Made by a program: the position numbers and the translations under genes
Origin: a virus
Strand: one strand, 5' to 3'
IMG/VR virus record: IMGVR_UViG_3300043446_001327
Location: 1-39,772 of that record
DNA: 39,772 bases
Notes under the pieces: model-generated
Seen by the model: only the letters and a program-made list of their open reading frames with translations
Database searches by the model: none
Told to the model about the DNA's origin: nothing
Shown here: one piece after another, positions 3,439 through 37,444 of the stretch
How positions within the stretch are numbered: position 1 is the stretch's first letter
Layout: the number at the start of each line of letters is the position of its first letter

Positions 3439-5151
3439 ATGAGCGCATACACAGGCGACGCGCAGTCCTATCCCAACGCACCCAAGCGCAGCCAGTTGTG
3501 GACGCGCTGGGGTCAGCTCAAGACCGAGCGCGCGACCTGGTGGGCGCACTGGCAGGAAATCACCAACTTCCTGCTGCCTCGCAACGGACGTTATTACCGG
3601 CAGGACCGCGACAAGGGCTGGCGGCGGCACAACAACATCTACGACAACACCGGAACGCGGGCGCTTCGCACGCTAGGAGCAGGCATGATGGCTGGCGCGA
3701 CCAGTCCCGCCCGCCCGTGGTTCCGGCTTTCTACCGGCGATCCTGGTCTGAACGCATACCAGCCCGTGAAGGAATGGCTGGATGACGTGACCAAGCGCAT
3801 GCAGATCGTGTTCCAACGGTCGAACACCTACCGCACCCTGCATCAGATGTACGAGGAGTTGGGCGCATTCGGCACCGCCGGATCGATCATGCTGCCCGAT
3901 TTCAACAACGTGATTCATCACTACCCCGTTACCTGCGGCGAATATTGCATCGCGCAGGATTTTCAGGGCCGGATCTGCACGCTGTATCGCGAGTTTGAGA
4001 AAACCGTGGGCGAGATCGTGAAGGAGTTTGGCTACGAGAACTGCTCCAACACGGTCAAGAACATGTACGACCGTCACAACCTGGACCAGTGGATTCCGCT
4101 GATCCATGCGATTGAGCCGCGAGCAGACCGCGACCTGAACAAGCGCGACAGCAAGAACATGGCGTGGGGATCGTGGTATTTCGAGGTGGGTGGCGATCCG
4201 GGCAAGTTCCTGCGCGAGAGCGGATTCAACGAATTCCCGTGCCTTGTCCCGCGCTGGGCCGTGGCCGGCGGCGACATCTACGGCAACAGCCCTGGCATGG
4301 AAGCCCTTGGTGACATCAAGCAGCTCCAGCATGAGCAGCTCCGCAAGGCGCAGGTCATCGACTACCAGACCAAGCCGCCGCTTCAGGTTCCGATCAGCAT
4401 GAAGAACCGCGATGTTGAGACGCTGCCCGGTGGCATCACCTACATCGACGGCGCCAGCCAGGGGATCAAGACGGCGTTTGAGGTGAACCTGAACATTCAG
4501 CACCTCCTGTTCGACATTCAGGACTGCCGCGAGCGCATTCGCGGTTCGTTCTACGCGGACCTTTTCCTCATGCTGGCCAATGCCACCGACACCCGGATGA
4601 CAGCGACTGAAGTGGCCGAGCGGCATGAGGAAAAGCTACTGATGCTTGGCCCCGTTCTTGAGCGGCTGCACAATGAGCTGCTGGATCCGCTGATCGACCG
4701 CACCTTCACCTGCATGCTTCAGGCTGGCCTGATTCCGCCAGCTCCAATGGAGTTGCAGGGAATGGATCTGAACGTGGAGTTTGTGTCCATGCTGGCCCAA
4801 GCCCAGCGCGCCATTGGCACCAACAGTGTTGACCGTTTCGTTGGCAACCTTGGCGCCATCGCACGGTTCAAGCCGGACGTGCTGGACAAGTTTGACAGCG
4901 ACCAGTGGGCCAACATGTACAGCGACATGCTGGGAATTGACCCGCACCTGATCGTCGCGGACAAGGAAGTGGCGATGGTGCGCGATGCACGCAGCAGGGC
5001 GCAGGCCGCGCAGGCGCAGGCCCAGATGCAGCAGCAGCAGTCGCAGACGGTCAAGAACCTGGCGCAGGCTCCGACATCGCAGCCCAACGCGCTTCAGGAC
5101 GTGATGAACATGTTCAGCGGTTACCAGTCGCCATCTCCGCTTGAGATCTAA
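3439..5151 (+). CDS. Portal (head-to-tail connector) protein
   Basis: This 570-residue protein fits the podovirus head-tail connector family of T7 gp8 and BPP-1-like phages. Its N-terminal region shows RWGQLKTERATWWAHWQEI followed by FLLPRNGRY, then LGAGMMAGATSPARPWFRL, a strongly conserved-looking block. The C-terminus is low-complexity helical (AQAAQAQAQMQQQQSQ). The protein forms the dodecameric ring at one capsid vertex through which DNA is packaged and ejected. It starts 2 bp after the previous gene and is followed within 2 bp by the phosphoesterase gene. Confidence 0.92.
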   Translation: MSAYTGDAQSYPNAPKRSQLWTRWGQLKTERATWWAHWQEITNFLLPRNGRYYRQDRDKGWRRHNNIYDNTGTRALRTLGAGMMAGATSPARPWFRLSTGDPGLNAYQPVKEWLDDVTKRMQIVFQRSNTYRTLHQMYEELGAFGTAGSIMLPDFNNVIHHYPVTCGEYCIAQDFQGRICTLYREFEKTVGEIVKEFGYENCSNTVKNMYDRHNLDQWIPLIHAIEPRADRDLNKRDSKNMAWGSWYFEVGGDPGKFLRESGFNEFPCLVPRWAVAGGDIYGNSPGMEALGDIKQLQHEQLRKAQVIDYQTKPPLQVPISMKNRDVETLPGGITYIDGASQGIKTAFEVNLNIQHLLFDIQDCRERIRGSFYADLFLMLANATDTRMTATEVAERHEEKLLMLGPVLERLHNELLDPLIDRTFTCMLQAGLIPPAPMELQGMDLNVEFVSMLAQAQRAIGTNSVDRFVGNLGAIARFKPDVLDKFDSDQWANMYSDMLGIDPHLIVADKEVAMVRDARSRAQAAQAQAQMQQQQSQTVKNLAQAPTSQPNALQDVMNMFSGYQSPSPLEI

Positions 5152-22300: not shown

Positions 22301-24979
22301 AGGGCAGCCCGAGATGCGTCCATGTCCCTTGAGAGCCTGCAAAGCCCAGCACAGGCCCGCCAGCGCGCTTATACGGCCGAATACAACAAGGCCATTGCGG
22401 AAGGCGAACCCGAGGCCACGGCGGTAACACGGGCTAACGGAGCCGGGACGATTGCGGAAGTCAAGGCGCAGCAAAGGATTGACCAGTTCAAGGCCAAATA
22501 CGGCGATGCAACGCCAGAGCAGATCACGTTGCGCGCGACCAGGCAGAGACTGCTAAACAATCAATTGGCGAAGGCTGCGCTTTCAGTTCGCGATGAAATC
22601 CAGACCAGTGTGAAGTATCTGCGCAAGGTCATGCGCGACACAAACGTCAAGCGCATGGGGGCTGAGGCGGCCGATCAGATTGCATCGCTGCTGGAGCGGT
22701 TCGACGTTCGACCGCTGACCAAGGCCGAGGCGAACCGCCGCGCTGTCTTGGCGAAGTGGGTCGAGGATCAGGAATCCAAGGGCATTGAACCCGATCTTGA
22801 TCCTGAGCTGCTGAAGGAATCGTATCGGATCTCGTACAAGAACATGACGATCACTCAGTTCCGCGATTTGGTCGCGGCGATTGAGCAGATTGAACACATC
22901 GGCAAGCATGCGAACAAGTTGCTGTCACAGCAGCGCAAGGCAGAGTTCCAGGCTGTTCTTGAAACGATCAATACGCGCGTTCGGCAAAGCGCGAAGGAGC
23001 AGGGCCGAACGAACTTGGCGCGCAACCCAAACACGCCAAGCAAGGCGGTGTTCAAGCAGATCAGAAAGTTCCACATCAGTCATCTCACCGCATCCTCAAT
23101 CATTCGCATTCTGGATGGCGGCAAAGATGGCGGTCCCATCGCGCAGATGTTGCTGCTGCCCATGAACAAGGCTGGCGATCTGAAAACGCAGATGACGGCC
23201 GATGCTACTGTGAAGCTGACGGAAATCCTGAAACCGTTCCTGAGCAGCGGAGCCATGACAGGTCAGATGATGACGTTCCCGGGAATCAATCGACCATTGA
23301 CGCTTGAAGAGCGCATGGTCATCGCCCTGAACGTTGGCAACGCCGGCAACCTGCAACGCCTGCTGGATGGTGAGGGCTGGACGATGGACACCATTCGGCC
23401 CGTGTTGGAATCGCTGACGAGCGAGCAATGGAATGCGGTGCAACAGGTGTGGGATTATCTTGACACGTTTCGGCCTCTGTTTGCCGAGCGTTCGCGTCGG
23501 ATGATTGGCCGCGAACCGCAATGGGTTGAAGCTGTTCCGTTTCAGGTGCGTACATCCGATGGCAAGGATCTGTCGCTTCGTGGTGGCTATTACCCGGCCA
23601 AGTACGACACAGAAGCAAGCATTCAGTCCGAGCGCCTTGATGCTGCCACACAAGCCGAGCAGCAGATGAATTCGGCACGCATGGTGCCCAGCACGCGCAA
23701 CAGTGGTTTGCTCAAGCGCGCAAAGCAGGTCAAGAATCGCCCGATCTTGCTGAATCTGTCGGCGCTGTATTCGCGCGTGGATGAGATGATTCACGACTAC
23801 GCATATCGCGAAGTCATCATTGACGCCAACCGATTGCTGAACTCATCTTTTGATGACACGATGCGCGAAACCTTTGGAGCTGAATGGGTTCGCAAATTGC
23901 GTGAATGGGTAAGTGATGTTGCGGCCGGAGACAGCGGGCCGATGGACGCTACAGATCAGGTGCTGAACTTTGTTCGTCGTGGCAAAACGGCATCGGTCAT
24001 GGGATTGAACCTGTTCAACACCGTTCAGAACCTGACAGGCATGGCAAACTCGTGGGAACGTATTGGCGGCAAGTGGCTGGCAAGTGGCATTCAGCAGTTT
24101 GCGTCACGTCCACTTGAACAGATCAAGCGGGTGTATGCCATGTCATCGTTCATGCGCAATCGTGCGCGGACCAGCATGATGACTCTGAACGAGGTCAGGA
24201 ATGTGGTGCAGGGCGAGAGCCGAACCATGCGACAGGTTGAGATCGCGGCGTATTACTTGACGCTGCAATCGCAGCGTGTGGTGGATATGTGTACTTGGCT
24301 GGGTCAGTACTCAAAGATGATTGCGGAAGGCAAGACCGAAGAACAAGCAATCGCTCTTTCTGACCAGGCCGTGATTGACGCACAGGGTTCTGGAATGACC
24401 AAGGATCTTGCGGCGGTCATGCGCGGGTCGGGCAAGAAGAAGATTCTGACCATGTTCTACAGTTTCTTCAACAGCACCTACAACATGATCTCGGTGAAGC
24501 AGATGACCAGCCGTGACGCGGCTGACATCGCGGCGACGTATTTCCGGGTGATTGTCGTTCCAGCAACCTTGAGTTACATGCTGAAGCAATTGCTGAAGCC
24601 GTCGGTTGATGACGAAGAAAAGGATCTGACGGAAATTGCTCGCGAGCTGGCTGGCGAAAACCTTTCGTACCTGATGAATACGGTGATCGGTGTTCGCGAA
24701 CTGGCACCGCTCGCGCAGTCGGTTTTCGATTCGGACAACCGCCCGCTGACATATGGAGGTCCGGCCGTGTTTGGGGGGATTGGTGACGGATACCGATTCC
24801 TGAATCAGGTTCGCCAGGGCGAGCTTGATGCCGGCTTCAGGCGTGCATTCTTGAGCATTCTTGGCTGGGGCACAGGCCTGCCGACTGCGCAGCTGAATCG
24901 AACGCTTGATGGTTTGACAGCCATATACGAAGGCAAGACCGTCAGCCCGCTCGCGCCAGTCTTTGGTACGCGCAGGTAA
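16319..24979 (+). CDS. Giant polyvalent internal virion/ejection protein
   Basis: This is a 2,886-residue protein, 22% of the window. Regions in order: an N-terminal helical part; a Gly-rich hydrophobic segment (about 255-330, TGATVGAGIGAVGGMG) that could insert in membrane; helical spacer with an Ala/Pro/Gln linker (about 700-760); a large polyvalent-protein-associated domain containing SSHWDQPNVLVHFRLNDR and LFVEEIQSDWGQAGRKKGF (about 1225-1262); a zinc metallopeptidase site HETAH at 1579-1583, followed by EQWAYNFEQYLADGKAPS; a long helical stretch; and the C-terminal domain with GGYYPAKYDTEASI (about 2422) and DYAYREVIIDANRLL. Such giant proteins are injected with phage DNA, as in Bcep22-like podoviruses and P1 DarB-like proteins. 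The gene occupies the gp16 position. I see no clear SLT motif. Base composition is mosaic, AT-richer near 18.6-18.8 and 19.65-19.97 kb. Confidence 0.85.
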   Translation: MIEPNIEDRMARIASGSVGGNPIDPDVSSILNRPATESMPAMTQTVEPSGTDPDVSDIVGRSNPIPLMSSLMSARQVDPAQAARAQTLGQQLGIGQDIALRNMGSVADRAFMAEINRRDIAVANPVVARLLSQRDFANIAHDDIPNLVDADEFWKSVPLTNNVLVDWLLPIEWKKQFAGGVAKELGNPERQDLVRDIVWQRDISSDERKARAKRFNELRAQEAMFEPMSSGWIATPVSFITQQLVDIPRTLDYVVTGATVGAGIGAVGGMGALDWATIPMGALGGGAVGLTTGFGMNSFYSNAAEIYFDLTNKGYDHETARAAAQIGGGLIAAVDIGTLKLASGFTRGVVKKALGNAMLTNVLERFGLQATEAAAERAAATLATQAVTAPAKVTMLRGLAKAGLEGLKATSVEAGGEAFQDVIQYATEVAANQITPAEMRKALQSPESLADAAKGWANTFYETMRGAWVFEIPGMAGHVRHTYKQVQAVERFTALTNRVASLSQSSALRERSPDTYAGAVDTMAQGSGAETIYIDGMTARNVLAQANVSDEQVEQIMPGLSAQIRDAAESGTDVTIPMGQFAARVANTPVDQALRQHMRGNPSESTAAEMQFANRMVTAMVQEKEQELSEQISRTKEFIKSANEVQDTVYSDLFATGRYTAEQARTQAAFAKRFYATMAARQNQMPGELYAKLPYRTVMEGQAIPSPSQPSPTPAVPQAEATVPATQFADVSTATADASAQVDAAVAAGELNEQQASQARNSVKKLNRASVGGKIAELAQAAWQAAKRNIGAIKNAVDKANSALAALGVEVVDPVGSKYVEGIQEYEVVSFEPYQEGQANEAPHVSRTIAPIVRRNGQIIAKGQVVVREGSPQYIAQQEQLEESKKAEMRARLGGAAQPLEQAAIPFAQAPVSPGFYSALAKAVDAVDAKSMAASGWKERIKGLVNKGDVKQDEVDWSGLTDWLDMQEGKVTKEAVAEFLKNNGVRVERVQIGGTELENLRNEHARAEMDYDDAFEAERAAQLGTDEAAWNAADARLSEARRRVSVLSARLAETERASTKFSQYTLPGGTNYREVLITLPSVITSRAAEQARYNELVAAGFPLMEAQRIASETAADIQDRQLELQKQQEPYASNVAELVRLVSGNVEGSSPFTMFQWLKDHPNKAEWQPQIDAWIDAVGGDFLAYVENRGWLNDLEAFQNLNLQIEALRAERRIREREQRGFKSSHWDQPNVLVHFRLNDRVDADGKRVLFVEEIQSDWGQAGRKKGFASPMLSTLPAGTKLYEPGTSPYDAKMAVVELPAGIGGRSLFYGNTIEEAKANALAFTKPGAVPLAPFVENTDGWLNLGLKHIMLEATQGNYDRVAFVNGKQSADRYELSKQVSLLSVNKQADGRYLTYIEGIDGSPLIRNRDGFSDSGQKVMTAEELADTVGKDVAEQAINGKPNKDGWVDVRGDDLKVGGKGMIEFYDKIVPTAVNKLLKKYGGGKLGNVMLSNMREQELAQDAERMGMTQADVLDLAEPGEYAAAQPGFLVTPEMVKKLESGLPLFQAMPAPGAPRGGFDPARLTTLLTKRSDLTTWLHETAHFFFVGLSQMASQADALPGIRADMDAVLTWFKIEGATPEERLANWNALTMEQQRKYHEQWAYNFEQYLADGKAPSIELQGVFDRFAAWIRGVYKTVRDELNAIYRREFGEDLPILTGEVRSVMDRMLASEEQIKLAREVQSAKPLFAGRPEGMSDAEWAAYQAMAEEDENEAIAAMTKASIGSMEWLSGARSRMLAKLQSKHDKVRGEIRKRLQAEVEREPAYRALRYFRTGVLVNEDGTEVKTESGYKLRTTGIEQVLNTVNRMIPVPGTSEMRFAEGYIDPLKVPKSIMAADGMDPSVAAEMLGFASAEEMLRGVVNAKPIREEVNARADAEMARDYSELATPEGRERQIQKALHTEMRERMIGVELRWLAKATQPVRVFVEAARQAAEQIIGGVLVKNLSVADYTAAEARAARDASMSLESLQSPAQARQRAYTAEYNKAIAEGEPEATAVTRANGAGTIAEVKAQQRIDQFKAKYGDATPEQITLRATRQRLLNNQLAKAALSVRDEIQTSVKYLRKVMRDTNVKRMGAEAADQIASLLERFDVRPLTKAEANRRAVLAKWVEDQESKGIEPDLDPELLKESYRISYKNMTITQFRDLVAAIEQIEHIGKHANKLLSQQRKAEFQAVLETINTRVRQSAKEQGRTNLARNPNTPSKAVFKQIRKFHISHLTASSIIRILDGGKDGGPIAQMLLLPMNKAGDLKTQMTADATVKLTEILKPFLSSGAMTGQMMTFPGINRPLTLEERMVIALNVGNAGNLQRLLDGEGWTMDTIRPVLESLTSEQWNAVQQVWDYLDTFRPLFAERSRRMIGREPQWVEAVPFQVRTSDGKDLSLRGGYYPAKYDTEASIQSERLDAATQAEQQMNSARMVPSTRNSGLLKRAKQVKNRPILLNLSALYSRVDEMIHDYAYREVIIDANRLLNSSFDDTMRETFGAEWVRKLREWVSDVAAGDSGPMDATDQVLNFVRRGKTASVMGLNLFNTVQNLTGMANSWERIGGKWLASGIQQFASRPLEQIKRVYAMSSFMRNRARTSMMTLNEVRNVVQGESRTMRQVEIAAYYLTLQSQRVVDMCTWLGQYSKMIAEGKTEEQAIALSDQAVIDAQGSGMTKDLAAVMRGSGKKKILTMFYSFFNSTYNMISVKQMTSRDAADIAATYFRVIVVPATLSYMLKQLLKPSVDDEEKDLTEIARELAGENLSYLMNTVIGVRELAPLAQSVFDSDNRPLTYGGPAVFGGIGDGYRFLNQVRQGELDAGFRRAFLSILGWGTGLPTAQLNRTLDGLTAIYEGKTVSPLAPVFGTRR

Positions 24980-24994
24980 CGGTCGGGATCAGCG

Positions 24995-25068
24995 ATGAGC
25001 ACCAGCGCCCCAGAGTTTGACCACGGAATCAGCCCCGCCGCTGGTGCTCATTCTTTGCATTCCGTGGT
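24995..25068 (+). promoter_or_regulatory. Interleaved inverted repeats (pseudoknot-like or switch RNA) over the methyltransferase start
   Basis: Arm A (24995-25007, ATGAGCACCAGCG) is perfectly complementary to A' (25039-25051). Arm B (25020-25029, ACCACGGAAT) is perfectly complementary to B' (25059-25068), and G-U plus T-A can extend it by two. The order A-B-A'-B' is that of an H-type pseudoknot with connecting segments of 12, 9 and 7 nt. Alternatively it gives two competing hairpins. Arm A contains the ATG of the methyltransferase. The element begins 15 nt after the stop of the giant gene. Confidence 0.8.
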
Positions 25069-25612
25069 TAGACCTCTTTCGGGCTACTCGGTGATACTGG
25101 CTGACCCGCCGTGGAAATACTACGGAGATCCGAACAAAGACCAAGCGTGTGGAAAACACTACAACTGCATGACGCCAGAAGAAATCGCCGCGCTGCCGGT
25201 AAAGATGCTCTGCGCCGACCGCGCCGTGGTGCTGGTGTGGGCGACGTGCCCGATGCTCGACGTGGCGATGGATACCATCCGGGCATGGGGACTCCACTAT
25301 CGAGGCGTGGCCTATGTGTGGGTGAAAACCCGCGCCGACGGCGGAATCATCAACGGGCAAGGCGTGCGACCGACGCTGACAAAACCGACAACCGAACTTG
25401 TGCTGGCTGCCAGCACGGTGAAGCGTGGAAGGCCGCTCAAAATCCTGAATGAAGGGCAAGGGCAAGTCGTCCTCGCGCCAAGAGGAGAACACAGTAAGAA
25501 ACCAGACGAAGTGCAGAAGCGAATTGAAACACTACTCGGCGACGTGCCGCGCCTCGAACTATTCGCAAGGCGGAAACGACCAGGTTGGGATGCGTGGGGC
25601 AATGAGGTCTAA
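24995..25612 (+). CDS. MT-A70-like DNA N6-adenine methyltransferase
   Basis: This is a 205-residue protein from ATG 24995. The catalytic DPPW motif (VILADPPWKYYGD) lies at about residue 37, with later LVWATCPML, HYRGVAYVWVKT and a C-terminal GDVPRLELFARRKRPGWDAWGNE, the usual MT-A70 ending. It should transfer a methyl group from SAM to adenine N6 in phage DNA, probably protecting it from restriction. Family members often begin close to the VILADPPW strand, so the first 20 or so residues, encoded by the inverted repeats, may be leader; GTG 25064 is an alternative start without an obvious Shine-Dalgarno. It sits alone between virion genes, like a moron. Its frame is open back to the giant gene's TAA. 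Confidence 0.85.
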   Translation: MSTSAPEFDHGISPAAGAHSLHSVVRPLSGYSVILADPPWKYYGDPNKDQACGKHYNCMTPEEIAALPVKMLCADRAVVLVWATCPMLDVAMDTIRAWGLHYRGVAYVWVKTRADGGIINGQGVRPTLTKPTTELVLAASTVKRGRPLKILNEGQGQVVLAPRGEHSKKPDEVQKRIETLLGDVPRLELFARRKRPGWDAWGNEV

Positions 25613-25614
25613 CA

Positions 25615-25643
25615 GGTATCCGTAACGAGGTACGGCATCCGTA
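25615..25643. repeat. Paired GGTATCCGTA / GGCATCCGTA elements before the tailspike gene
   Basis: GGTATCCGTA at 25615-25624 and GGCATCCGTA at 25634-25643 are spaced 19 bp apart in the 60-bp gap between the methyltransferase and tailspike genes. The first 10-mer recurs exactly at 2602-2611 and 7167-7176, also at gene boundaries. TACGG-CAT-CCGTA (25631-25643) forms a 5-bp hairpin followed by AGTTTT, which could be a weak terminator. Function unknown. Confidence 0.5.
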
Positions 25644-25672
25644 AGTTTTGAGAACTATCCCGGAGCAAACGC

Positions 25673-27592
25673 ATGACGATCAATTCGACCACCCGAACTG
25701 CTGGACCCTTCATCGGTAACGGGACGGCTTCCGTCTTTCCGTTCACGTTCAAGGTGTTCCAGGCTTCGGATCTGGATGTCATCAAGCTGACGATCAGCAC
25801 TGGCATTGAGTCCACGCTTGTGCTTACTACCGACTACACCGTCAGCCTGAACGGCGATCAGAACAGCAACCCCGGCGGCAACGTGACCTTGACTGCCGGC
25901 GCGCTGGCGGCTGGTTACACGCTGACGATCACCTCCGACATCGCCAACCTCCAGCCCACGGACCTGACGAATCAGGGTGGGTTTTATCCCGAGGTCATTA
26001 CTGATGCACTTGACCGGGCCACGATCCAGATTCAGCAGATGGCTGATGATCTGACTCGTTCAATCAAGACTCCGATTTCCGATGGTTTGGCGTTGAACAT
26101 GGAACTGCCGACGGCAGCGCAGCGCGCCAATTCGTTCTTTGCGTTTGATGCCAGCGGCGAGCCAACAATGGTTACTGCTGGATCCAGTGGCGCTCCGGCA
26201 ACAATTACACGGCAGACGTTCAGCGGCACGGGATCACAGACGGCGTTTACGCTGGCATCAGATCCTGGCGCGCTTGGTAACAGCGCACAGGTCTACATTG
26301 GCGGCGTCTACCAGCAGCGCAGCACATACACGATCAGCGGCACGACCCTGACGTTCTCAGCTGCCCCGGTGGCCGGGACCGACAACATCGAGTTCGTGAA
26401 CTTCCTGACCGACAACATTGGAAGCACCAGCGCCGATCTGGTGACCTATACGCCAAGTGGAACTGGCGCAGTCGCACGCAGCGCGGCAAGCAAGTTTGGC
26501 GATGTGGTCAGTGTCAAGGACTTTGGCGCCGTCGGTGATGGTGTGACGGATGACACGGCGGCCATCAATGCGGCGTTGCTGGCAAGTCCAGCGGTGTTTC
26601 TGCCCATTGGAACCTACAAGACAACGGCACCCATCATGCTGAATGACAGCAACATTCTTGTCGGCGCCGGCATCACCTCAATCATCAAGAACACTACTGG
26701 CTCATCCGTGATTCGATCCGTTACGCCGACCGGCGCCAGGATCTATCACGTCGGCGGTGGCAACTTCAAAATTGAGGGCAACACGTCTGGCGCAGCGGCC
26801 GGCAGCATCGGCCTGGACATGCAGAACGTGACGTATGCCAGCTGGACTGACGTGTGGATCAATTATGTCGAAACCGCGATCAGGCACGGCAATGGGTATC
26901 CGTCGTACTACAACGACTATTTCACCTGCACGATCACGTCCTGCACAATTGGTATCGACAACTCCAGCGGCGGAAACGAAAACCGATTCACGGCTATGCG
27001 AATTGGCGCCACTACGGGCACCAGCGATCAGGCATGTACGTCCAACACTTATTTGGCATGCGCGATTGAGGGCTTTACGACTGGGCACAAAATTACTGGG
27101 GCAGCAACACAGGCCATTCGCTACATCGGCAGCCGACTGGAATCTGTTGTTGGCGGTGCGGTCGGAATCGACATCAACGCATCTGCACAGCAGACGCAAA
27201 TCCTAAGCCCGTTCTTCAGCGTCGCTACAAACATTGCGGATGCTGGATCCAGTGGCGCAACCGTTCTGTATTCGGACGAATTCAAGATCAACTCTGGAAC
27301 GGCAGCGCAACGCCATGTGGTTTCCAAGGTGGTCAAATCGATTGCATCGCTTGCGCCGCTCACGTGTCGGCAGGAACAATTCACCGTTTCGTCCCTTGGC
27401 GGTGGACTGGCAAATCGAGACATCGTTTCGTTTACCGCGCCTATTTCGTGGCCAGCAAAGGTCATTGCCGGACCAGTCATCAATGGCGGCGCGGGCATCG
27501 TCTATGTGAATCTGTACAACACTGATACGGTCAATACCGCCAACTTCACGGCAGGCGAAACGTATCTGTTTGATTCTTGGCGATATGCCTAA
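25673..27592 (+). CDS. Tailspike: T7 fibre-like N-terminus plus beta-helix
   Basis: This is a 639-residue protein. The N-terminal about 150 residues (INSTTRTAGPFIGNGTASVF ... ITDALDRATIQIQQMADDL) match the virion-attachment domain of T7 gp17-type fibres. A second small beta domain (about 180-260, TFSGTGSQTAFTLASDPGAL) follows. Then comes the pectate-lyase-3-like start of a right-handed beta-helix (KDFGAVGDGVTDDTAAINAA, about 282-301). The shaft ends in a small C-terminal beta domain. It is the receptor-binding protein or capsule/LPS depolymerase. Catalytic residues cannot be located by eye. Confidence 0.85.
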   Translation: MTINSTTRTAGPFIGNGTASVFPFTFKVFQASDLDVIKLTISTGIESTLVLTTDYTVSLNGDQNSNPGGNVTLTAGALAAGYTLTITSDIANLQPTDLTNQGGFYPEVITDALDRATIQIQQMADDLTRSIKTPISDGLALNMELPTAAQRANSFFAFDASGEPTMVTAGSSGAPATITRQTFSGTGSQTAFTLASDPGALGNSAQVYIGGVYQQRSTYTISGTTLTFSAAPVAGTDNIEFVNFLTDNIGSTSADLVTYTPSGTGAVARSAASKFGDVVSVKDFGAVGDGVTDDTAAINAALLASPAVFLPIGTYKTTAPIMLNDSNILVGAGITSIIKNTTGSSVIRSVTPTGARIYHVGGGNFKIEGNTSGAAAGSIGLDMQNVTYASWTDVWINYVETAIRHGNGYPSYYNDYFTCTITSCTIGIDNSSGGNENRFTAMRIGATTGTSDQACTSNTYLACAIEGFTTGHKITGAATQAIRYIGSRLESVVGGAVGIDINASAQQTQILSPFFSVATNIADAGSSGATVLYSDEFKINSGTAAQRHVVSKVVKSIASLAPLTCRQEQFTVSSLGGGLANRDIVSFTAPISWPAKVIAGPVINGGAGIVYVNLYNTDTVNTANFTAGETYLFDSWRYA

Positions 27593-36640: not shown

Positions 36641-37444
36641 ATGAGTGTACAACCCGACAGCGGTGCGCTGGGCTTCATGCCGTTCTATTACCAGCGGTTC
36701 GCATGGTCTACGCGCGGCTGGCCGCCAGAAGCTGCGCTGGCTTACTTGTTCCTGCTGTGCGAGCAATACAGCAACGGCGGCCTGAACCCTGACCCACAGG
36801 TGCTGGAGGAGATCGCGCCAGGCACGGTTGCGCATTGGGATCGCATCAAGCGCAAGTTCACCCAATGCTCTGACGGCCTGCTTCGCAATGCGCGATGTGA
36901 GGAGTTCAGGGAGAAAGCATTGGCCGCCGGCGACCGAAGGAAGCGTCAGGCCCGCAATGCAGCAGCAATGCGTTGGCAATGCTCGAGCAATGCTGGAGCA
37001 ATGCTGGAGCAATGCTCGAGCAATGCGGCAGCAATGCTCATCGATGCCAACGATAACGATAACGAGAACGATATCGATAACGAGATCGAAAACCAGAGCG
37101 AGAGCAAGAAAACAGAAACGCTCAACGGCTTTGCCGTCGAGCCAGTTTCAGTCCCGGCTGCAAAGCAGCGCCGAGCAGTTATCAGAACCGAGGTGCTGGA
37201 GGAGCTGTGGGGACTGTTCCCGCGAAAGGTGGGGAAGCGAAAGGCGCTCACGCTCCTCGACAGGGCCGTGCGCGAGGTCATGGATGACTTTGAGCAGGAC
37301 GATCCAGCCGACGCAATCGAATGGATGCGTGAGAAAATCACCGCGATGGCTCAAGCCACGCGCACGCTTGAGACGAAATTCATTCCGCACCCAGCGACCT
37401 GGCTGCACCAAGGCCGGTACCTCGACCCGGTGGAGGCAACCTGA
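36641..37444 (+). CDS. Replication initiator-like protein (YdaU/DUF1376-type N-terminus) with embedded origin
   Basis: This 267-residue protein starts at ATG 36641 after AGGAGG. N-terminal FMPFYYQRFAWSTRGWPPEA then AALAYLFLLCEQYSNGG is the DUF1376/YdaU-like winged-helix pattern of phage replication proteins. The middle (about 105-150) is encoded by eight 11-bp iterons and an A-rich tract and consists of NAAAMRWQCSS-type repeats followed by an Asp/Asn/Glu-rich linker. The C-terminal domain (LWGLFPRKVGKRKALTLLDR, IPHPATWLHQGRYLD) may contact the host helicase loader. The arrangement of DNA-binding domain, origin in the gene, and partner domain parallels lambda O. Confidence 0.8.
   Translation: MSVQPDSGALGFMPFYYQRFAWSTRGWPPEAALAYLFLLCEQYSNGGLNPDPQVLEEIAPGTVAHWDRIKRKFTQCSDGLLRNARCEEFREKALAAGDRRKRQARNAAAMRWQCSSNAGAMLEQCSSNAAAMLIDANDNDNENDIDNEIENQSESKKTETLNGFAVEPVSVPAAKQRRAVIRTEVLEELWGLFPRKVGKRKALTLLDRAVREVMDDFEQDDPADAIEWMREKITAMAQATRTLETKFIPHPATWLHQGRYLDPVEAT
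36954..37037. repeat. Eight GCAATGC iterons at 11-bp spacing, candidate replication origin
   Basis: GCAATGC begins at 36954, 36965, 36976, 36987, 36998, 37009, 37020 and 37031, each exactly 11 bp apart. The 4-bp spacers vary (AGCA, GTTG, TCGA, TGGA, TGGA, TCGA, GGCA). An 11-bp DNA period is not a codon multiple, so selection acts on DNA, placing sites on one helix face. Typical of initiator-binding iterons. Confidence 0.9.
37051..37092. other. A-rich hexamer tract beside iterons, candidate DNA-unwinding element
   Basis: Seven tandem hexamers of the form CGANAN (CGATAA, CGATAA, CGAGAA, CGATAT, CGATAA, CGAGAT, CGAAAA) start 13 bp after the last iteron and lead into a purine-rich stretch to about 37118. 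The local AT content is much higher than the genome average. It could be the site of strand opening next to the iterons. It encodes the DNDNEND-type linker of the replication protein. Confidence 0.65.

Follow-up and report, generated by a model that had tools for sequence, protein, structure and literature searches.

Interleaved inverted repeats ahead of an inserted MT-A70 methyltransferase gene in a BPP-1-like phage: a possible two-state RNA leader

What role, if any, do two long inverted repeats have when their arms are interleaved with each other and lie over the start of a gene? The question is raised by a virus record of 39.8 kb (IMGVR_UViG_3300043446_001327; 39,772 nucleotides), which was analyzed over its whole length and is referred to here as the window. 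It comes from a podovirus related to Bordetella phage BPP-1 and carries genes for the terminase, portal, and capsid proteins, a gene encoding a 2,886-residue Bbp10 homologue (the giant gene), and a tail-fibre gene next. Around the start of an MT-A70 methyltransferase gene in this region, a first-pass annotation had pointed out two perfect inverted repeats, A/A' and B/B' (Table 1). Both were verified: the complementarity is 13/13 for A and A' and 10/10 for the core of B and B', and the arms follow one another along the plus strand in the order A-B-A'-B'. When the B pair is lengthened to 15 nt (25015-25029 with 25059-25073), 87% of the positions are complementary. A regulatory role of such repeats, judged from their sequence and position, is plausible. 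Our best guess, which falls somewhat short of an even chance but is the most likely single explanation, is that they form a two-state RNA leader that limits or controls translation of the methyltransferase.

The interleaved pair is beyond chance, as had been proposed. Interleaved repeats of at least 13 and 10 bp within 80 nt did not occur once when the whole 39.8-kb record was shuffled 200 times with its dinucleotide composition preserved, while the window contains one such pair. Counted singly, perfect repeats within 80 nt that reach 13 bp or more were found at a mean of 0.06 per shuffle and three times in the record; one of the three is a compact terminator-like palindrome, and another is a 13-bp perfect inverted repeat with a 49-nt spacer within the portal gene (4561-4635). 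Because the portal gene also holds such a repeat, a single 13-bp repeat would be unremarkable by itself, and it is the interleaving that is remarkable. Neither hairpin has the makings of an intrinsic terminator: no T run follows B', and A' is followed by TCTTTGC but encloses a loop of 31 nt. Elsewhere in the window, a tandem array of an 11-bp unit (GCAATGCTGGA-like) at 36943-37049 is, on either strand, among the segments of the genome with the strongest predicted folding.

Table 1. Features of the methyltransferase insert, its repeats, and the corresponding slot in related phages
Feature	Position	Strand	Remarks
Inserted unit (leader with repeats plus MT-A70 gene)	24979-25612	+	About 634 bp; absent from L082
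Direct repeat CAGGTA, left copy	24973-24978	+	Target duplication or microhomology
Direct repeat CAGGTA, right copy	25613-25618	+	Homology to L082 resumes at 25614
Arm A	24995-25007	+	ATGAGCACCAGCG; 13 nt; opens with the candidate ATG start
Arm B, extended	25009-25029	+	10 perfect bp at 25020-25029, then an extension with G-U pairs and bulges
Arm A'	25039-25051	+	CGCTGGTGCTCAT; perfect complement of arm A; weak Shine-Dalgarno-like GGTG inside at 25043-25046
Arm B', extended	25059-25083	+	Perfect part 25059-25068; candidate GTG start 25064-25066 inside
MT-A70 methyltransferase	25064-25612	+	GTG start according to homologues; TTG 25055 possible; ATG 24995 would give 205 aa
GTTAGACCT	25067-25075	+	Inverted 9-nt match to 25605-25613
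AGGTCTAAC	25605-25613	+	Right end of insert, up to the right junction; overlaps the stop codon of the gene
Family's own gap between giant gene and tail-fibre gene	25614-25672	+	Displaced by the insert; equivalent gaps in relatives
Gap hairpin in relatives	L084:6904-6970, L284:3898-3965, L292:3910-3977, L295:3904-3971, L296:3910-3976, others		Corresponding window slot 25614-25672

The repeats form part of an insert, at its left end. L082, the closest relative found with the giant protein (66% identity), has the stop codon of its giant gene directly abutting the sequence equivalent to window position 25614 onward. In BPP-1 and the other relatives examined, the giant gene is likewise followed by the tail-fibre gene, usually across a gap of 50 to 70 nt, and no match to the methyltransferase was found in the L082, L083, and L084 records or at the junction locus of any relative. 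Since these phages pass from the giant gene to the tail-fibre gene without a methyltransferase, the window carries a recent insertion of about 634 bp.

The same slot showed other signs of exchange. The gap and the beginning of the tail-fibre gene (25614-26151) are 91% identical in DNA to L082, as opposed to only 69% for the giant gene upstream, a contrast suggesting that the tail-fibre module was recently exchanged. In another relative, what looks by eye like an HNH-endonuclease gene (L201:2516-3004) lies between the conserved gap and the tail-fibre gene. The slot seems to accept cargo repeatedly. In the window, the methyltransferase is in the frame of the giant gene (24977-25612) and is separated from it by a TAA alone, with the structure beginning 15 nt past this codon. 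Readthrough of the stop would thus yield a fusion of the two proteins. We considered this possibility and set it aside: a shared frame has a one-in-three chance of arising, and nothing else spoke for readthrough.

The junction location brings up the main rival of the two-state leader, which we regard as unlikely on balance but which carries real weight. According to this explanation, template switching or microhomology-mediated recombination during capture of the gene copied nearby sequence in reverse complement at the left junction, so that the repeats are functionless or gained a function only later. Template switching is documented to make perfect stems in a single event (PMC8794818), the insert is bordered by 6-bp direct repeats, the family's junctions lack the inverted repeats, and the phage encodes a recombination exonuclease of the RecE/YqaJ type. 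However, one inverted duplication yields the order A-B-B'-A', and the observed A-B-A'-B' would therefore require at least two separate events. Moreover, neither the rest of the window nor the compared loci yielded an ancestral sequence for either arm, and the strand bias of the B stem described below is not expected of a scar.

Another possibility is that the unit is the remnant of an integron cassette. Here 25015-25073 would be an attC-like site, and the methyltransferase with its terminal GTCTAAC would be the cassette. The candidate site has a length of 59 bp and ends in GTTAGAC (25067-25073), which satisfies the R' consensus GTTRRRY, and GTCTAAC (25607-25613), overlapping the stop codon, satisfies the R'' consensus RYYYAAC. 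Known attC sites commonly have an unpaired central spacer and an extrahelical base (PMC2727003), whereas the arms here pair through 15 nt without a bulge and leave neither. In addition, the left box, GTTTGAC at 25015, violates RYYYAAC, the conserved start of the gene would fall within the site, and GTCTAAC is followed by phage sequence rather than by an attC, so that the cassette context is absent as well. A cassette remnant is thus very improbable.

Whether the repeats are coding or noncoding depends on where the methyltransferase begins. The gene encodes a complete MT-A70 domain with the DPPW motif, which matches PF05063 with an E value of 5.3e-29 (residues 31-204 of the 205-residue frame, model positions 1-172 of 172); it also matches PHROG 359, and its relatives in the PDB include 7f4r and METTL3. 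Close homologues were compared from viruses, Brevundimonas phages, and Sphingomonas, and their nearest likely start codons precede DPPW by 13 to 22 residues. The candidate starts in the window precede it by 13 (GTG 25064), 16 (TTG 25055), and 36 (ATG 24995) residues, and the homologues thus suggest GTG 25064 or TTG 25055 as the true start over ATG 24995. With either of them, about 85 nt become mainly 5' leader, and 24980-25063 is probably, though not certainly, such a leader. The first-pass annotation had placed the ATG of the gene in the first arm and the repeats in protein-coding sequence. Arm A does begin with an ATG, but the homologues make it a doubtful start; the repeats are in coding sequence only if ATG 24995 is used, and the domain begins at residue 31. 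Both ATG 24995 and GTG 25064 sit within repeat arms.

If ATG 24995 were nevertheless the true start, the first 23 to 26 residues would be a genuine extension of the enzyme, and the repeats would be coincidental. The frame is open from 24980, frame 0 is the top-scoring one in the leader, and of the four Shine-Dalgarno scores, all weak, that of this ATG is the best. On the other hand, the extension is absent from all homologues compared, and chance does not explain the repeats. The G+C content by codon position is flat in the leader (0.58/0.58/0.58) as opposed to 0.65/0.46/0.66 in the methyltransferase, although only 26 codons enter the former figure. We therefore give a coding N terminus little credence. 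The weakness of the Shine-Dalgarno sequences at all candidate starts counts against the two-state leader.

We next turn to the B repeat, which had been described as a stem of 10 bp. The perfect part has this length, but in plus-strand RNA it belongs to a longer, imperfect stem (25009-25029 with 25059-25083) that comprises about 22 bp, including G-U pairs, and has two bulges. Beyond the core, the pairs are G-U, U-A, U-G, U-A, and G-C, and past the bulges AGA pairs with UCU and CCC with GGG. With the perfect core held fixed and the flanks shuffled, the real flanks folded better than 98.7% of the shuffled ones on the plus strand (P = 0.013) and better than 83% on the minus strand (P = 0.17). Both non-Watson-Crick positions adjoining the core are G-U in plus-strand RNA; G-U pairs instead of A-C mismatches would be expected in about one case in four if both changes were transitions, a caveat that weighs against the two-state leader. 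The asymmetry of the flanks is modest evidence that plus-strand RNA is the molecule that matters.

This bias also argues against a DNA-level operator, in which the four arms would be bound by a repressor or by the methyltransferase itself. The arms are long and perfect, and their midpoints are placed almost regularly, at approximately 25001, 25022, 25045, and 25066 (with 15-nt B arms), or about 21 to 23 bp apart, near two helical turns. However, A and B differ in sequence, the genome holds no further copies, and neither pair of arms makes a compact dyad, the spacers being 31 and 29 nt. A search for a sigma-70-like promoter found none. Overall, we consider an operator improbable, and like the coding N terminus and the cassette remnant it is less likely than the two-state leader.

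Folding of the growing transcript is consistent with two competing hairpins, one of the two arrangements that had been suggested for the repeats. In these computations, the A hairpin was present with 3' ends at 25050-25075 and the B hairpin from 25080 onward. The calculated energies were -49.2 kcal/mol with A forced, -60.5 kcal/mol with B forced, and -61.1 kcal/mol without constraint, which places the B fold about 11 to 12 kcal/mol below the A fold. The B fold is predicted to pair GTG 25064 completely and to leave ATG 24995 mostly free. By computation only, then, the RNA has the two stable and mutually exclusive folds of a bistable leader. Against this reading, the region does not stand out in folding energy, since 81 of 1,984 plus-strand windows scored better after correction for G+C content, and the B hairpin, fixed and stable, may simply be inert.

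The other suggested arrangement, an H-type pseudoknot, fared less well. The two stems do have the A-B-A'-B' order of such a pseudoknot, and with stems of 13 and 10 bp its loops would measure 12, 9, and 7 nt. Judged on general geometry, a full pseudoknot is unlikely, because the 7 nt of the third loop must span the 13-bp stem and because arm A is separated from the extended B stem by a gap of 1 nt. Partial pairing of A with A' inside the B loop is possible.

Taken as a two-state leader, the region would work as follows. The methyltransferase gene, acquired horizontally and placed in a late phage operon, would be fronted by an RNA in which hairpin A-A' forms first during transcription and masks ATG 24995 and the weak Shine-Dalgarno-like GGUG. 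Once transcription has reached about 25080, the longer hairpin, B-B', would win and disrupt A-A', exposing ATG 24995 and trapping within its stem the GTG 25064 favoured by the homologues. Because either fold would restrict initiation, translation would be low or would rely on ribosomes coming from the giant gene immediately upstream. The repeats, their nonrandomness, the insertion, and the plus-strand bias of the extended stem are observed, and the order and energies of the folds are computed; production of the RNA, its folding in this manner, and its control of translation, including the direction of that control, are inferred.

We searched for relatives of the leader. Viral contigs scanned for the patterns A...A' and B...B' gave no match, and in blastn searches the region matched phage records only by the body of the methyltransferase, in two Brevundimonas phages, and did not match plasmids. 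Comparison of the leader with all fetched loci returned chance words only; its similarity to the family's own gap sequence is weak (P = 0.04). Comparable repeats were absent from the leaders of 80 viral methyltransferase homologues, and none of the homologues examined in viral contigs, phages, and bacterial genomes carried the leader. Rfam gave no match at the gathering score in the window and none up to an E value of 5 in 24900-25200, and we found no described element with interleaved repeats at a phage MT-A70 gene in the literature. At present, in collections from which very close records may be missing, the leader is thus one sequence without relatives and therefore without covariation, which counts against the two-state reading.

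Hairpins that mask start codons and bistable leaders exist in bacterial and phage mRNAs. The present leader would resemble them in holding start codons or the ribosome-binding region in alternative hairpins, one giving way to the other as the transcript lengthens. It differs in that no arm is common to its two stems, which are mutually exclusive by geometry only. The autogenous translational operator of T4 and RB69 gene 32 likewise consists of interleaved complementary segments in a phage mRNA leader, ahead of a gene whose product acts on nucleic acids. Its pseudoknot is common to T4, T2, and RB69, with a solved structure, footprints, and coaxially stacked stems (PMC3014915). By contrast, the stems considered here comprise 13 and about 22 bp, the loops are too short for both to form fully, and neither relatives nor a ligand are known.

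Another parallel lies within the phage family itself. In BPP-1-like phages, the motif GGTGC[ACG]CGTA is conserved after the stop codon of the giant gene. One subgroup carries in this gap a hairpin with a conserved apex, GATAGCCTTGCGGCAATC, and a variable stem that includes the Shine-Dalgarno sequence of the tail-fibre gene. Among ten subgroup sequences, 82% of the cells pair, compared with 38 to 52% when the partner is slid, and four pairs have changed on both sides in a compensatory manner. A model built from the ten sequences (R1) detected further members in the same slot, such as L308, L310, and L319. The hairpin became visible only once the alignment was limited to one subgroup; RNAalifold found no consensus structure in 30 mixed gap sequences of the family. 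Rfam gave no match in the six loci tested, and we found no description in the literature.

The gap hairpin occupies the same genomic slot as the methyltransferase leader and likewise extends across the initiation region of the next gene, but its sequence and structure are different, and the window and L082 fail to match the model. A leader hairpin over the start of the following gene thus occurs in the family, in some of the relatives, which we count in favor of the two-state leader. The gap hairpin may prove a more rewarding lead than the methyltransferase leader.

What would the two-state leader mean for the phage? In its boldest form, the MT-A70 gene would travel with a two-state leader of its own, and the enzyme, or methylation of the leader, would provide autogenous control. 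Phage MT-A70 enzymes can act on RNA as well as DNA, and one prophage enzyme prefers 16S rRNA (PMC10810198); action of the enzyme on its own leader is for this reason conceivable. We nevertheless view autogenous control as a long shot, and control through a ligand, which the first-pass annotation also raised, is conjecture. If autogenous control were true, the leader would join a very small set of viral leaders in which interleaved stems control their own gene, and here it would be carried within a small cargo insert. More generally, if the two-state leader works, a single cargo gene would have entered a late structural operon together with a translational switch of its own, and this would account for the tolerance of a potentially harmful methyltransferase at that place.
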